Part shown: piece by piece, positions 191 to 4,973 of the stretch
Layout: each line of letters starts with the position of its first letter
Numbering within the stretch: position 1 is the first letter of the stretch
Assembly: GCF_001968985.1 (NCBI RefSeq)
Contig: NZ_MOEN01000016.1
Location: 1-33,851 of the forward strand
DNA from: Desulfurobacterium indicum
Lineage (GTDB): Bacteria; Aquificota; Aquificia; Desulfurobacteriales; Desulfurobacteriaceae
Length of the DNA stretch: 33,851 nt
Direction of reading: 5' to 3'
Notes under the pieces: model-generated
What the model was told of the DNA's origin: nothing
The model's database searches: none
What the model saw: only the letters and a program-made list of their open reading frames with translations
Made by a program: the position numbers and the translations under genes

Positions 191-805
191 TTAGTATAAA
201 AGTTGCACGATTTTTCCTTCTTTCTTAACTTTTCCCCTCTTTTTAAGCTGCGATATGGCTCTCGAAACTGTTTCGGCTGTAAGTCCAAGTTCCATAGCAA
301 CTATAGTTGTCTTAAACTCCACCTTTCCGTTTTGATCTGCTTTATGAACTATGTAATCATAAACCCTGGATACTGCATCTTTAAGGCTCAAATTTTCAAC
401 AAGACCAACAAGATGGAAAAGTCTCTCGGAAAGAATTCCTATCATCTTCATTGCAATATCGGGATTCTTTCTAATAACTTCAGTAAGTTTCTCTTTCGGA
501 AGGAAAAGCACCTGAACTTTATCAAGAGCAACTGCATTTGCAGGAAAATTACCTCCCTTTAAAGCTCCCGCTTCTCCCATCATAGAAACAGGAGAAAAAA
601 TTCTTATCGTTTGCTCCTTTCCCGCAAAAGATTTGTACAACTTTACCTTTCCCTTCGTAAGTATATATATACCGTTTGCCCCATCATACGAAGAGAATAT
701 TATCTGCCCTTTATCATAAGAGTAAGACATCAAAACATTTTCTATCTCCTTCAACTCACTATCTTCAAGTGTGGAAAAAAGAGGTAAGGACCTTAAGATA
801 TGCAC
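191..805 (-). CDS. Crp/Fnr-family transcriptional regulator, HcpR-like
   Basis: A 204-residue protein with an N-terminal cyclic-nucleotide-binding-type beta roll (about residues 8-120), a dimerisation helix and a C-terminal winged HTH (about 150-200). The recognition helix contains AETVSRAI. Its E-x-x-S-R spacing is the one FNR-type proteins use to read TTGAT/TTGAC half-sites. There is no N-terminal Cys cluster, so it is not an oxygen-sensing Fe-S FNR. The Cys/His haem ligands of CooA are also missing: the matching stretch reads SMMGEAGAL. With a YgbA-like gene and a CODH/Hcp-type protein in the same operon, I infer an HcpR-like nitrosative-stress regulator. The start is GTG at 805 with a GGGGG ribosome site six bases upstream; the gap to ygbA is 18 bases. 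It is last in the operon and a matching box lies upstream of the first gene, so autoregulation is likely. Confidence 0.85.
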   Translation of the reverse strand: MHILRSLPLFSTLEDSELKEIENVLMSYSYDKGQIIFSSYDGANGIYILTKGKVKLYKSFAGKEQTIRIFSPVSMMGEAGALKGGNFPANAVALDKVQVLFLPKEKLTEVIRKNPDIAMKMIGILSERLFHLVGLVENLSLKDAVSRVYDYIVHKADQNGKVEFKTTIVAMELGLTAETVSRAISQLKKRGKVKKEGKIVQLLY

Positions 806-823
806 CTAAATCCCCCTATATTT

Positions 824-1141
824 TCAATCTTCAGTTATTCTATCAAGAATTTCTTCAATTCTGTGCTTAAGCCACTCTACAGGCGCATGGAAAATCATGC
901 GAGGACCGCTGTATTTCATAACCTGCCGTATTTTTTCTTTCATCTCCGGAGTGTAACAATGGATGGGACATTTTCTACAAGATGGTTTATTATCCCCAAA
1001 AGGACAGAGATCAAGTCTTTTAAAAGCATAATGCTTTAAGCGCTGACATTCAGAACACAAGTCATCTTTGGTCCTGTGTTTACCATGACAGTAGATAACA
1101 ATCATCTTTTCTATAACGTGTTTTTCTTTCTCTATACTCAT
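824..1141 (-). CDS. ygbA: YgbA-like nitrosative-stress protein (nitrous oxide-stimulated promoter family)
   Basis: A 105-residue Cys/His-rich protein. It shows the family signatures IYCHGKH, LCSECQRLKHYA, RLDLCPFGDNKPSCRKCPIH (eight-residue core CPFGDNKP) and IRQVMKYSGPRM. The many paired cysteines suggest a metal or Fe-S site. In E. coli the family member YgbA is controlled by the NO-responsive repressor NsrR; its exact chemistry is not something I can derive here. I chose ATG at 1141, because GGAG lies five bases upstream, over the GTG two codons earlier. It sits between the CODH-family gene and the Crp/Fnr gene, all on the minus strand, and is the strongest pointer that the operon handles nitric oxide or hydroxylamine. 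Family assignment is by recognised motif pattern. Confidence 0.85.
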   Translation of the reverse strand: MSIEKEKHVIEKMIVIYCHGKHRTKDDLCSECQRLKHYAFKRLDLCPFGDNKPSCRKCPIHCYTPEMKEKIRQVMKYSGPRMIFHAPVEWLKHRIEEILDRITED

Positions 1142-1160
1142 AACCACTCCTAATTATAGC

Positions 1161-1189
1161 AGAGGGAAGGCTTTAAAAGCCTTCCCTCT
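1161..1189 (-). other. Perfect 13-bp intercistronic hairpin between cooS-like gene and ygbA
   Basis: AGAGGGAAGGCTT (1161-1173), loop TAA, AAGCCTTCCCTCT (1177-1189). The stem is perfect with a three-base loop, and lies between the stop of the CODH-family gene and the start of ygbA. On the transcribed (minus) strand it is followed by GCTATAATTAGG rather than a U-tract. It is therefore not a clean intrinsic terminator. It could be a 3'-end stabiliser or partial terminator setting unequal expression of the operon genes. Confidence 0.7.
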
Positions 1190-1222
1190 AGAGAAAAATA
1201 TGGAAGAGGAGGAGTGGCTGGT

Positions 1223-3139
1223 TTATATACCCAGCGCTTCTCTCTTTTTGAGAATGTGAGCTTCAATACCATCAGCAACCTGAACAGGATCATCACCGAT
1301 AGCTATTTTTCCACCTGTGAGAGATTCAACGTCTTCAAGCAGAAGCTTCACAACCTTATCTGAACCTGTAACGGGAGGAGTTGGTGAAACATGAGTGTAA
1401 AGTCCCATTGCAACGGCAGAGAATCCATCAATAACAGCCTTCTGCTCCATATACTCAGGTGCGGTAACAGCAACGGGAAGGTCAGCAGTATCAACACCAA
1501 GTGCATTTGCTATTGCAACAACTGTCATAACAATTCTTCCTGTATCTGTACAGGTACCAAAAGAGAGAACCGGTGGAATACCAAGAGCCTTACAAACGCC
1601 TTTCAATCTCTCACCTGCATACTTCTCAGCAGCTTCAAGCGTCTCAAGTCCTGCCTGCTGAAGGCCTGCATTACCGCAACCGGCACCTATGACTAAAATG
1701 TCTCTCTTTATAAGTTCTTTGGCAAGATTAACAGTAAGGCTATCTTGCGGTCCATTGGCAAGAGTCGTACAGTTTACAAGAGCAACAACGCCTTTGATAT
1801 CCCCTGACTTGATAACTTCAAGAAGTGGTGTCAGACTTCCACCGAGAGCATTTATAATAGCCTCTGCTGAAAATCCAACAATTGCTTTTTGTCTGTATTG
1901 AGAAAGTTCTTCTCTTTTTACAGAACTTTTTCTCTCTTTAAAGTTCTCTATAGCCATTTCAATTATTTTTCTTGCAATTTCTTTCTCGTTTCCAGGCTTA
2001 TACTCAAGCCTTTCAGCTCCCGGTACACCTATGATGTTTGAAACGGCAACAAGCTTGAACTTATACTTATCGGCATACTCTTTAAGGTTTGCAAGAGAAC
2101 AGTTCATATCCATAGCAAAAACATCAACAGCACCAGAAGAGAGGAAATATTCTATTCCTATCCAGTTTGATGTTAGACCTGCAAATGTTTCTGATATAGG
2201 ATTCCTTGCAAGGAGTTCCTGACCTGTTTCAATTGATCCTACAACTCTTATTCCTTTAGCTCCAGCTTCTTTTGCCATCTGCTGGAATTTTTCATCCTTT
2301 GCAATCTCTATTAAAGCTTGTCCCACAAAAGGCTCATGTCCGTTTGGTAAAATGTTAACATAATCAGGATCAAGAACGCCTAAATCAACCTCACCCTCAT
2401 GAGGTGATGGAGTTCCATAAAGAGCATCCTGCATAAGTTCAAGGGGAACGAGCGAACCAAACACTGAAGCAACACCGTTTCTTAAAGCGGCAAGAGCGAG
2501 AGTTATATAATCTCCATCTATATTTGTCATTCCTCTTGTTACAGAATCAACAAGTTCTTGATAAGGTCCTTTTGGGAATATTCCAAGCTTTTTAAATACA
2601 GCTTTTCGTGATTCAGGAGCCAGTTTTTCTACAAGAGTTGATTCTCTATTTTCTGCAAGAAGTTGAAGATATTTTTCAGCTACTGCTTTTGCTTTTTCAT
2701 TCAGTTCAAGTGATTGGTCAACATTTAAAATGTCAGCTAAAAGATCTATTTTTGTAGGATCTTTTATTTTATAGATAGTTTTTCCTTCAGCGGTTGCTTT
2801 AAGGGTTTCCGCAACTTCTCTTGCGTGGTATGTATAAGCGGCAAGACCCATATTGGTCTTGTGAAGAAGGTTTCTCATAACAATACCGTGAGCATCTATA
2901 CCACAAACGCCCCTCGGTGTTTGAGGAGTAATACGGCATGGACCCATTGAACATAGCTGACATGAAACTCCTTCCTTACAGAACTTACATCTAACCTTCT
3001 CCATAGCTTCAAATCTGTCAGCCACATTCGAAAGCTGAGCTTCTTTAACCCTCTTATACATATAATTGATACTGTTGTGGATACTAATGACACCGTTCCC
3101 ATTGTCTTCCGGCGCACCACCAAAAAGCTTCTTAAACAT
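1223..3139 (-). CDS. CODH-family (CooS-like) hybrid-cluster protein lacking one C-cluster cysteine
   Basis: A 638-residue protein, the normal length for a monofunctional CooS. N-terminal cluster cysteines are C51, C54, C60, C63, C68 and C79. From memory of C. hydrogenoformans CODH-II, the active-site positions align as H268 (H261), C347 (C333), C457 (C446), C488 (C476), C530 (C526) and K567 (K563). The cysteine expected at the CODH-II C295 position is missing. The stretch GSIETGQELL replaces the usual CCTGNE motif and puts E304 there, with E308 nearby. Deviant CODHs lacking this cysteine are known: CooS-V of C. hydrogenoformans carries an Fe-S-oxo hybrid cluster, does not oxidise CO and reacts slowly with hydroxylamine. 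No cooC, cooF or acetyl-CoA synthase gene is in the window, and a YgbA-like gene and a Crp/Fnr regulator follow. I infer a nitrogen-oxide or hydroxylamine reductase or redox-stress enzyme. RBS AGGAGG precedes the ATG. Confidence 0.9.
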   Translation of the reverse strand: MFKKLFGGAPEDNGNGVISIHNSINYMYKRVKEAQLSNVADRFEAMEKVRCKFCKEGVSCQLCSMGPCRITPQTPRGVCGIDAHGIVMRNLLHKTNMGLAAYTYHAREVAETLKATAEGKTIYKIKDPTKIDLLADILNVDQSLELNEKAKAVAEKYLQLLAENRESTLVEKLAPESRKAVFKKLGIFPKGPYQELVDSVTRGMTNIDGDYITLALAALRNGVASVFGSLVPLELMQDALYGTPSPHEGEVDLGVLDPDYVNILPNGHEPFVGQALIEIAKDEKFQQMAKEAGAKGIRVVGSIETGQELLARNPISETFAGLTSNWIGIEYFLSSGAVDVFAMDMNCSLANLKEYADKYKFKLVAVSNIIGVPGAERLEYKPGNEKEIARKIIEMAIENFKERKSSVKREELSQYRQKAIVGFSAEAIINALGGSLTPLLEVIKSGDIKGVVALVNCTTLANGPQDSLTVNLAKELIKRDILVIGAGCGNAGLQQAGLETLEAAEKYAGERLKGVCKALGIPPVLSFGTCTDTGRIVMTVVAIANALGVDTADLPVAVTAPEYMEQKAVIDGFSAVAMGLYTHVSPTPPVTGSDKVVKLLLEDVESLTGGKIAIGDDPVQVADGIEAHILKKREALGI

Positions 3140-3216: not shown

Positions 3217-3225
3217 AGAATGTCC

Positions 3226-3239
3226 TTGATTTATGTCAA
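3226..3239 (-). promoter_or_regulatory. Fnr/HcpR-type operator box
   Basis: TTGAT-TTAT-GTCAA on the plus strand (TTGAC-ATAA-ATCAA on the minus), extended to C...G on the flanks. It matches the 5-4-5 architecture of Fnr/HcpR sites. It is centred about 94 bases upstream of the CODH-family ATG. The minus-strand half also forms a perfect TTGACA -35-like hexamer. The operon's own regulator has the E-x-x-S-R recognition helix expected to read such half-sites. The box also lies about 60 bases before the divergent glycosylase gene, so it could serve both directions. Confidence 0.65.
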
Positions 3240-3300: not shown

Positions 3301-3960
3301 TTGAATGACAAAGTCTATTCTAAAATAAAGAAAAGTTTATCTTCCTTAACCATCAAAGATATTATTCATATTGAGGAGAATGACCCTCAATTTAAGGCTC
3401 TAAAAAGAATGTACTCTCATTACGGAACAAACAAAGTGCTATTTATAAAACTTGTTGTTATAAATGCTCTTTTGTCGTATCAACTTCCCATGAAAGGAGA
3501 AAAATACTGGGAATCTTTTGCCAACTACTTTTCCCACAATAAAAACATTAACTCCTTTCCAGAATTTTTAAAGAAAAATAACTACCGTTTATTTAACGCA
3601 AAACTTAAAAGGTTTAAAAAAGCCAGAGAAGCAGTAAACGAAATTTTTAAAACAGAGAAAGATCTGAAAAACGCAATAAATAATATAGGTGAATTTTTGA
3701 ACAGATTATCCTATCTACTCAATCAGAAAAAAGACGCAAAAACTGTCGTCTTTGCAATAAAAATGTTTATTTATGCCTGCCGTATAATGTATAACAAAAA
3801 TATAATTGCCCCTAAAGGAATATTTATTCCCATGGACAGCAGAATCAAATCAATATCAGACGATAAAAACTTCTGGAAAAAACTTGAGAAAGAAACGAAA
3901 ATACCTTTGATACATATAGATGCCATTCTGTGGCTCTCTCATGAAAAGTGGAGAAAATAG
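3301..3960 (+). CDS. AGOG-type 8-oxoguanine DNA glycosylase/lyase
   Basis: A 219-residue helical protein matching the archaeal AGOG family (HhH-GPD superfamily), which removes 8-oxoguanine and cuts the strand by beta-elimination. Visible signatures are the MKGEKYWESFANYF block (about residues 64-77), KTVVFAIKM with the putative catalytic Lys147, PMDSR with the putative catalytic Asp179, and the C-terminal PLIHIDAILWL. The Lys-Asp spacing of 32 equals that of K140/D172 in Pyrobaculum AGOG. The start is TTG, with AGAGGA eight bases upstream. It is divergent from the nitrosative-stress operon and shares its control region, so a link to oxidative or nitrosative DNA damage is plausible. AGOG is mainly archaeal, so lateral transfer is likely. 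A low-GC, Lys-rich coding style does not set it apart from its neighbours. Confidence 0.85.
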   Translation: MNDKVYSKIKKSLSSLTIKDIIHIEENDPQFKALKRMYSHYGTNKVLFIKLVVINALLSYQLPMKGEKYWESFANYFSHNKNINSFPEFLKKNNYRLFNAKLKRFKKAREAVNEIFKTEKDLKNAINNIGEFLNRLSYLLNQKKDAKTVVFAIKMFIYACRIMYNKNIIAPKGIFIPMDSRIKSISDDKNFWKKLEKETKIPLIHIDAILWLSHEKWRK

Positions 3961-4020: not shown

Positions 4021-4392
4021 ATGATTATTGCAGTTCCAGCCATAGAAACAGAAATAAACGGAAAAAGATTAATAAGTCCCCATTTTGGCAAAGCGCCTGC
4101 ATTTGTTATCTATAACGGAATAACAGAAGATTCTATGCTCGTGGAAAATCCCAAAAACAGAGCAGGCTACGGTGGAGGTAGACTCATAGCAGATCTTTTC
4201 ATGAGAAACGGCGTTGATGTCGTCCTTGTAAAAGAAATGGGTGAAGGAGCGTTCTTCAACCTTCAAAGTGCAGGAGTAAAAGTCTTTCTAATACCTGAAA
4301 ATGTTAAGTTCGTAGAAGATGCCATTAAATTCTATATTGAGGGGAAACTTCAACTTCTTACAGAACCTTCTGAAAGCGGACATCACCATTAA
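4021..4392 (+). CDS. NifX/NifB-like dinitrogenase iron-molybdenum cofactor family protein
   Basis: A 123-residue single-domain protein with the compact RNase H-like fold of the NifB C-terminal/NifX family. It opens with MIIAVPAIE, has the SPHFGKAPAFVIY motif near residues 23-35 and the GYGGGRLIADLFMRNGVDVV segment in its middle, and ends in HHH. Family members bind Fe-S or FeMo-cofactor precursors; standalone forms in non-diazotrophs are thought to store or carry Fe-S clusters. No nif gene is in the window, so a nitrogenase role is not implied. A strong AAGGAGG site precedes the ATG. The next gene begins 11 bases downstream, so the two are probably cotranscribed with the cytochrome-biogenesis pair. 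Confidence 0.8.
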   Translation: MIIAVPAIETEINGKRLISPHFGKAPAFVIYNGITEDSMLVENPKNRAGYGGGRLIADLFMRNGVDVVLVKEMGEGAFFNLQSAGVKVFLIPENVKFVEDAIKFYIEGKLQLLTEPSESGHHH

Positions 4393-4403: not shown

Positions 4404-4973
4404 ATGAAGTGTCACCTGTGTAACGATAAAGGATGTTATCGAGAAGGAAAGGTGTGTCAGAAATCTCCACAACTTGATAACCTGCCGGAAGAAGAACTGA
4501 AAATGCTAAAAACGGCTTCAGAAATAGAGAAAGAGTTTTACTGTCAAATGACACGGTTAGAGGAAATCGTAGAATTTGCAAAGAGAATGAATTACAAAAG
4601 AATAGGCATTGCTTTCTGCATAGGCCTGTTTAACGAAGCGAAAATCGTTGCTGACATATTCACAGAGAAAGGGTTTGAAGTCTTTTCCGCAATATGCAAG
4701 ATCGGTAGCGTTGACAAGGAAACGCTAGATCTTCCAAAGTTAAAAAAAGGAAAAGAAGCCGTCTGCAATCCGATAGGACAGGCAGAAGCTTTAAACAGAA
4801 AGAAAACAGACCTTAACATTGTAATAGGTCTTTGCGTAGGACACGATATACTGTTTCAGAAACACTCCGATGCTCCCTCAACGGTACTCATAGTCAAGGA
4901 CCGTGTTCTTGCCCATAACCCTGCAGGAGCAATCTATACACCTTACCATCTCCGCAGAATTACAGGAGAGTAA
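4404..4973 (+). CDS. DUF1847-like cysteine-rich putative metal-binding protein
   Basis: A 189-residue protein opening MKCHLCNDKGCYREGKVC. It has further cysteines in FYCQMTRLEE, GIAFCIGL, FSAICKIG, EAVCNPIGQAEALN and VIGLCVGHDILFQKHS. The spread of Cys/His motifs across a soluble alpha/beta domain indicates metal or Fe-S binding. The pattern is that of the DUF1847 family, whose function is unknown to me. There is no signal peptide or membrane segment. It is flanked by a NifX-like protein 11 bases upstream and a CcsA-like protein one base downstream, which suggests a redox or metal-handling operon. The family name is a recognition call, while the Cys content is seen directly. Confidence 0.7.
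   Translation: MKCHLCNDKGCYREGKVCQKSPQLDNLPEEELKMLKTASEIEKEFYCQMTRLEEIVEFAKRMNYKRIGIAFCIGLFNEAKIVADIFTEKGFEVFSAICKIGSVDKETLDLPKLKKGKEAVCNPIGQAEALNRKKTDLNIVIGLCVGHDILFQKHSDAPSTVLIVKDRVLAHNPAGAIYTPYHLRRITGE

Follow-up and report, generated by a model that had tools for sequence, protein, structure and literature searches.

What is the function of a protein usually labelled as a carbon monoxide dehydrogenase (CODH) when its gene stands beside a gene of a nitric oxide (NO)-stimulated family? This question is raised by a locus near the start of a 33,851-nt stretch of Desulfurobacterium indicum contig NZ_MOEN01000016.1, the whole of which is called the window here. The genome from which it comes (1.6 Mb in 61 contigs, 99.98% complete) belongs to the Desulfurobacteriaceae, a family of hot-vent bacteria in the phylum Aquificota. 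The initial annotation described a minus-strand trio of genes for a CooS-like protein, a YgbA-like protein and a Crp/Fnr-type regulator, and proposed that a CODH-scaffold protein fills the role of Hcp under an HcpR-like regulator. The three open reading frames (ORFs) were confirmed on this strand, with Pfam domains Prismane, YgbA_NO, and cNMP_binding with HTH_Crp_2, respectively (Table 1). The data described below suggest that the module rather probably serves as a small unit of defence against reactive nitrogen, with a hybrid-cluster protein on the CODH scaffold that would do the job of Hcp.

Among solved structures, the closest relative of the window CooS was 7b7q, with a score of 701 bits as compared to 422 bits for the runner-up. 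This structure is that of CooS-V from Carboxydothermus hydrogenoformans (CooS-V_Ch; PMC9311411). The two proteins share 55% identity, and every residue named for the Fe/S/O hybrid cluster is kept in the window CooS (H268, E304, N346, C347, C457, C488, C530 and E565), as are the ligands of the B-cluster (C60, C63, C68 and C79) and of the bridging D-cluster (C51 and C54, the latter corresponding to Cys41 of CooS-V_Ch). The initial annotation had noticed that a C-cluster cysteine is missing, which was confirmed by the comparison: of the five cysteines and one histidine placed around cluster C in catalytic Ni,Fe-CODHs, the cysteine at position 295 of CODH-II_Ch is replaced by glutamate in CooS-V_Ch and, at residue 304, in the window CooS, while the remaining ligands are all kept. 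In an alignment of 108 proteins, all 103 CooS-V-type sequences had Glu295, Cys41 and Glu556, while the five comparison CODHs, one of which is the second CODH of D. thermolithotrophum, had Cys295 and Gly41, with asparagine or threonine at position 556. A tree separated all 103 Glu295 sequences from the comparison CODHs, with a support of 92 that was obtained with few comparison sequences and long branches, and the nearest named relative of the window CooS was a Desulfurobacterium metagenome-assembled genome from the same genus group. The score of the window CooS against the Hcp equivalog model TIGR01703 was 56.5 bits, below the cut-off of 360.8; the protein is not an Hcp, though it may work like one, and an Hcp-like role was already speculated for this group, named D-1, by Inoue et al. 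(PMC6344411). On the basis of the 55% identity to CooS-V_Ch, the complete set of hybrid-cluster residues and the glutamate in place of Cys295, the window CooS is classified by its sequence as a CooS-V/group D-1 protein and not as a Ni-CODH, and the label of carbon monoxide dehydrogenase is almost certainly wrong. The enzyme kind itself has already been described (PMC9311411; PMC6344411), and for CooS-V_Ch, which contains an Fe/S/O hybrid cluster and no Ni, neither CO oxidation nor CO2 reduction was detectable (PMC9311411). A different active-site variant was observed in CODH-like proteins at four loci of other Aquificota, which keep Cys295 and show Asn/Asp (YYNND) in place of the Glu/Lys of CooS-V (YMEQK); this variant is unusual and lies outside the structural groups listed in the accessible part of PMC6344411.

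The whole genome of the window was searched with PF03063, and cooS was the only prismane-family gene; neither Hcp nor a second CODH was found, which bears out the presumed absence of Hcp. The search sample consisted of 136 Aquificota genomes, 22 of them from the Desulfurobacteriaceae. Hcp was found in none of the Desulfurobacteriaceae genomes searched, and acetyl-CoA synthase (ACS; PF03598) in none of the 22, the window's own included. The earlier statement that partners of CO metabolism are lacking is thus correct for ACS, while cooC and cooF were never searched for genome-wide.

The YgbA-like protein matched PF11756 with 132.7 bits (curated cut-off 25), and in every one of the 22 Desulfurobacteriaceae genomes its gene was the 3′ neighbour of cooS-V in the same orientation, which shows that the clustering of the two genes is not due to chance. 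In the Aquificota sample, ygbA was present only in the two clades that carry CooS-V, in the second of which (clade f5) the two genes lie apart; none of the remaining genomes searched, carriers of Cys295 CODHs included, contained it. In a single draft genome of clade f5, ygbA was accompanied by an Hcp-class protein and no CooS-V match was found; its relatives have CooS-V, and a swap is possible. When nine loci from seven genera were compared, the only families common to all were cooS, ygbA, crp and a NifX-like gene, the last of which appeared in eight loci in the shared-family listing and was found in the ninth as well, where the annotation is split. The flanks vary across genera, with glnA, topA and groEL among them, and crp runs in the same direction as cooS and ygbA in the window's genus but converges on them in the other six. 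Hence, the linkage extends over the family, the operon of three genes is specific to one genus, and the persistence of the four core genes despite the inversion of crp and the changing flanks indicates that this linkage was maintained through rearrangement. The explanation that the operon is mere old synteny was rejected on these grounds. YgbA has a conserved C/H motif with invariant Cys and His residues, and its model (pLDDT 88) consists of four predicted helices, a fold for which no match was found in the PDB. NsrR controls ygbA jointly with hcp in Salmonella and E. coli.

The Crp/Fnr protein of the window is the single PF00027 protein found in the whole genome. It contains no cysteine that could serve an FNR-type N-terminal [4Fe-4S] cluster, and its histidines are not conserved among orthologues, in agreement with the initial annotation of a regulator devoid of such a cluster and of haem ligands. 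The recognition helix, LGLTAETVSR, is FNR-like; in the family form, LGLT[A/V/K]ETVSR, Glu181 is kept and Arg180 is absent, a combination that goes with TTGA-type half sites (Rodionov et al., PMC1274295). In 18 of the 20 loci, the sequence TTGAYnnnnRTCAA was located upstream of cooS, at a distance of 57–86 bp; in the other two, it precedes the small cupin gene that is the first gene of the cooS operon in these two species. The chance expectation, estimated by mononucleotide shuffling, was about 0.0018 per locus; the loci are not independent owing to the kinship of the species, though the sequence around the operator has diverged. The extended form, TTGAYNTANRTCAAGG, had 18 matches in the 22 whole genomes, 17 of them at cooS, as compared to one match for the reversed control pattern. 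A second extended operator in the D. thermolithotrophum genome was located inside an ORF and was taken as chance. The window's own genome contains eight TTGAYnnnnRTCAA sites, several of them in coding DNA, as compared to five for the control, and a regulon beyond cooS is not claimed. Because the Crp/Fnr protein is the only PF00027 protein of its genome, it is the evident candidate for reading the cooS operator. When the upstream regions were aligned on this box, a family-consensus TA...TT hexamer was observed at the distance that activation from position −41.5 would require, although the window's own copy of this hexamer is weak.

The relation of this regulator to HcpR is less clear-cut. Among the 60 listed profile matches, DNR had the highest score of the named full-length structures (125 bits, as compared to 98 for CooA, 94 for CRP and 90 for FNR), and HcpR was not among the 60. 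Both the TTGAY-N4-RTCAA operator and the helix with Glu181 and without Arg180, as expected of HcpR- or DNR-type regulators, are present, but they are common to other FNR-type regulators and so are insufficient for this assignment. Hence, of the proposal that a CODH scaffold takes the Hcp role under an HcpR-like regulator, the Hcp niche is supported by the sole prismane protein, its intact ligands and the dedicated FNR-type operator, while HcpR is at most a candidate identity for the regulator. Overall, that interpretation is partly supported, and it is strengthened in its core, the filling of the Hcp niche by a CODH scaffold under a dedicated Crp/Fnr regulator; it had included neither the NifX-like partner and the operator nor the fact that the genus is without a nitrate reductase.

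The features of the locus are collected in Table 1. The gaps between crp and ygbA and between ygbA and cooS are 18 bp and 75 bp long, respectively, and the annotated start of ygbA is GTG, with ATG at position 1141 as a possible alternative. A hairpin was present in the longer gap of all 20 family loci folded, with a sequence that differs for each genus and often with a T-rich stretch after it. Its function may be to stabilise the mRNA of cooS or to serve as a leaky terminator, so that the word operon does not imply equal expression of the genes. In other genera the NifX-like gene is directly divergent from cooS at a distance of about 130–150 bp; the DNA glycosylase gene that separates them in the window is probably outside the module. 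The DUF1847 gene is present in about half of the family loci.

Table 1. Features of the cooS-V locus, in window coordinates.
Feature	Position	Strand	Remarks
cooS-V, predicted CODH-scaffold hybrid-cluster protein (structural group D-1), 638 aa	1223-3139	minus	Pfam Prismane 4.7e-151
ygbA (PF11756, NO-stimulated family), Cys/His-rich, 107 aa	824-1147	minus	Pfam YgbA_NO 8.5e-39
Crp/Fnr-family regulator, 204 aa	191-805	minus	Pfam cNMP_binding + HTH_Crp_2
FNR-type operator TTGACATAAATCAA, 5′ of cooS	3226-3239	minus	kept in family
Extended operator form TTGACATAAATCAAGG	3224-3239	minus	
GC-rich hairpin, cooS–ygbA gap	1161-1189	no strand	terminator/attenuator-like
NifX/Nitro_FeMo-Co-family small protein, divergent from cooS	4021-4392	plus	conserved fourth partner
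DUF1847 protein, 3′ of nifX	4404-4973	plus	less constant partner
AGOG-type DNA glycosylase gene, between cooS and nifX	3301-3960	plus	window's genus only

The contexts of CooS-V outside the family were obtained from a scan of 84,980 species, of which the best 80 CooS-V-type loci were considered, a set biased toward sequences near the query. A neighbourhood check for ygbA beside cooS genes that lack Cys295, which the initial annotation had called for, was positive throughout the family, and none of the other Glu295 loci among these 80 had the two genes adjacent. Rrf2-family regulators were found beside CooS-V in eight loci. An approximately 270-aa protein with an N-terminal Fer4 domain was observed near CooS-V in about 20 loci from several phyla, in two of them together with a Crp/Fnr regulator, and it is possibly the electron donor of CooS-V. 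Its identification as the Hcp partner FrdX was not confirmed, as only one of 30 homologous loci was beside a true hcp. In five loci from relatives of Methanoperedens and anaerobic methanotrophs of the ANME-2 group, a gene for an octahaem protein of the hydroxylamine oxidoreductase (HAO) family (PF13447) is located directly 3′ of CooS-V, about 20–110 bp downstream and on the same strand. These neighbours are those expected of a nitrogen-oxide or redox-stress enzyme, and they show more pattern than the eLife 2026 survey gave for clade D.

The module could work in the following way. The Crp/Fnr protein, the sole one of the cell, would sense a stress signal, which may be NO or a related oxidant, and would activate cooS via one FNR-type operator at about −41. 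With electrons from a low-potential donor, for instance ferredoxin, CooS-V would in turn reduce NO and/or hydroxylamine in the cytoplasm, while the Cys/His-rich YgbA, which is NO-induced in enterobacteria, would act alongside it. More speculatively, the divergent NifX-like protein might carry or repair Fe-S clusters for CooS-V. Such a role in nitrosative stress is not proven, but as a prediction from sequence and context it is the best supported one. Several observations weigh against it. CooS-V_Ch reduced hydroxylamine very slowly (kcat 0.13/s), its reduction of NO was not above background, and the potentials of its cluster lie lower than those of Hcp by about 300 mV (PMC9311411). YgbA is of no known function, its link to CooS-V is confined to the Desulfurobacteriaceae, and in seven other CooS-V genomes ygbA adjoins neither cooS nor hcp. 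The intergenic hairpin may also uncouple cooS from ygbA. Moreover, NapA was found in none of the four genomes of the window's genus, which means that an internal source of NO or hydroxylamine is not obvious, and D. thermolithotrophum, which carries the module, was reported to use neither nitrate nor nitrite as an electron acceptor.

A competing explanation is a general redox-stress enzyme or redox sensor, responding to O2, peroxide or sulfur species and not specific to nitrogen oxides. Such a function would be consistent with the very negative potentials and the redox-gated channel of the CooS-V_Ch hybrid cluster, with the lack of nitrate respiration in the window's genus and the strictly anaerobic life of the hosts, and with the redox sensing suggested for clade D in the eLife 2026 survey. 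On the other hand, YgbA is known from the NO/NsrR regulon, and octahaem HAO-family cytochromes accompany CooS-V at loci elsewhere; we consider this explanation unlikely, although it is the strongest of the competing ones.

Full-length NapA-like proteins are encoded in most other genera of the family, HAO-family octahaem proteins in 21 of the 22 genomes, and NIR_SIR in none of the 22. Two octahaem proteins are encoded in the window's own genome, one of them very close to the Ignicoccus protein 4qo5 (421 bits), which reduces nitrite and hydroxylamine. In two Nap-positive genomes examined, the octahaem gene adjoins tetrahaem cytochrome and napA genes, and it is a candidate for the nitrite reductase of the ammonification pathway, whose nitrite step is described as unresolved in Thermovibrio ammonificans (PMC5441870). 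The same set of Nap with octahaem HAO-family and tetrahaem cytochromes forms the reverse hydroxylamine:ubiquinone redox module (reverse-HURM) of Nautilia, where Hcp/Har, a hydroxylamine reductase, serves the hydroxylamine step. CooS-V could then be a respiratory or assimilatory enzyme that provides the missing Har step by reducing hydroxylamine to ammonium after Nap and the octahaem nitrite reductase, and the lack of Hcp in the family and of NIR_SIR in its 22 genomes would fit this. The set is incomplete in the window's own genome, which has the two octahaem proteins and no NapA, while most other genera of the family contain parts of it; the module is equally kept in this NapA-less genus and in D. 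thermolithotrophum, and CooS-V_Ch turns over too slowly to sustain respiration. We regard this proposal as quite unlikely, and a role of the module tied to nitrate respiration is not supported. Since D. thermolithotrophum has the module and reportedly respires neither nitrate nor nitrite, CooS-V is best seen as protection and not as a respiratory enzyme, while a Har-like role in the Nap-positive genera is possible. Finally, that CooS-V is a genuine Ni,Fe-CODH supplying CO to the reductive acetyl-CoA pathway, as put forward for the T. ammonificans orthologue Theam_1337, a type V CodH present in the proteome with NiFeS ligands stated to be conserved (eLife 2017; PMC5441870), is highly improbable, and a Wood–Ljungdahl partner was rejected, because glutamate is at position 295 in every family member, that of T. 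ammonificans included (motif GSIETGQE), CooS-V_Ch is without CO activity, and ACS is absent from all 22 family genomes.

The nitrosative-stress module resembles several known systems. CooS-V_Ch is also of group D-1 in clade D, the members of which have been reported as mostly solitary and without clear context (PMC13056359); unlike it, the window CooS is the sole prismane protein of its genome and is linked to ygbA, a dedicated Crp/Fnr regulator and a NifX-like gene. The Hcp/Har systems under HcpR or NsrR share the hybrid-cluster chemistry and, in enterobacteria, have ygbA in the same stress network, and HcpR1 of delta-proteobacteria has a similar Crp/Fnr-type operator, TTGAC-N4-GTCAA (PMC1274295). 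In contrast to these systems, the window protein is of the CODH-scaffold lineage, there is no hcr, and the regulator was not identified as HcpR. It also differs from the reverse-HURM of Nautilia in that the family has no Hcp and the module persists where Nap is absent. The initial annotation knew of no described system with these three genes; the module was likewise not found in the open-access papers searched, while CooS-V itself had been described before. We give about even chances to the broader view that the Desulfurobacteriaceae replaced Hcp entirely by an independently evolved CODH-scaffold hybrid-cluster enzyme, forming with YgbA and the NifX-like factor a one-target regulon of the sole Crp/Fnr protein.

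CooS-V/clade D proteins are widespread and annotated as CODHs, and the 2026 survey found no clear gene context for clade D and noted that a role in stress still lacks experimental proof. The locus gives CooS-V a constant context of ygbA, a sole Crp/Fnr regulator, an operator and a NifX-like gene, which makes its role directly testable; the view that Hcp was replaced would, if true, provide CooS-V with its first physiological context. The result contradicts the reconstruction of T. ammonificans in which this protein serves as a CODH that produces CO (PMC5441870), and also the case for an acetyl-CoA pathway in the ancestor of the Aquificota to the extent that it rests on the Thermovibrio CODH. 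A replacement of Hcp by CooS-V, if true, would remove the CODH basis of the dual carbon fixation proposed for Thermovibrio and for the ancestor of the Aquificota.

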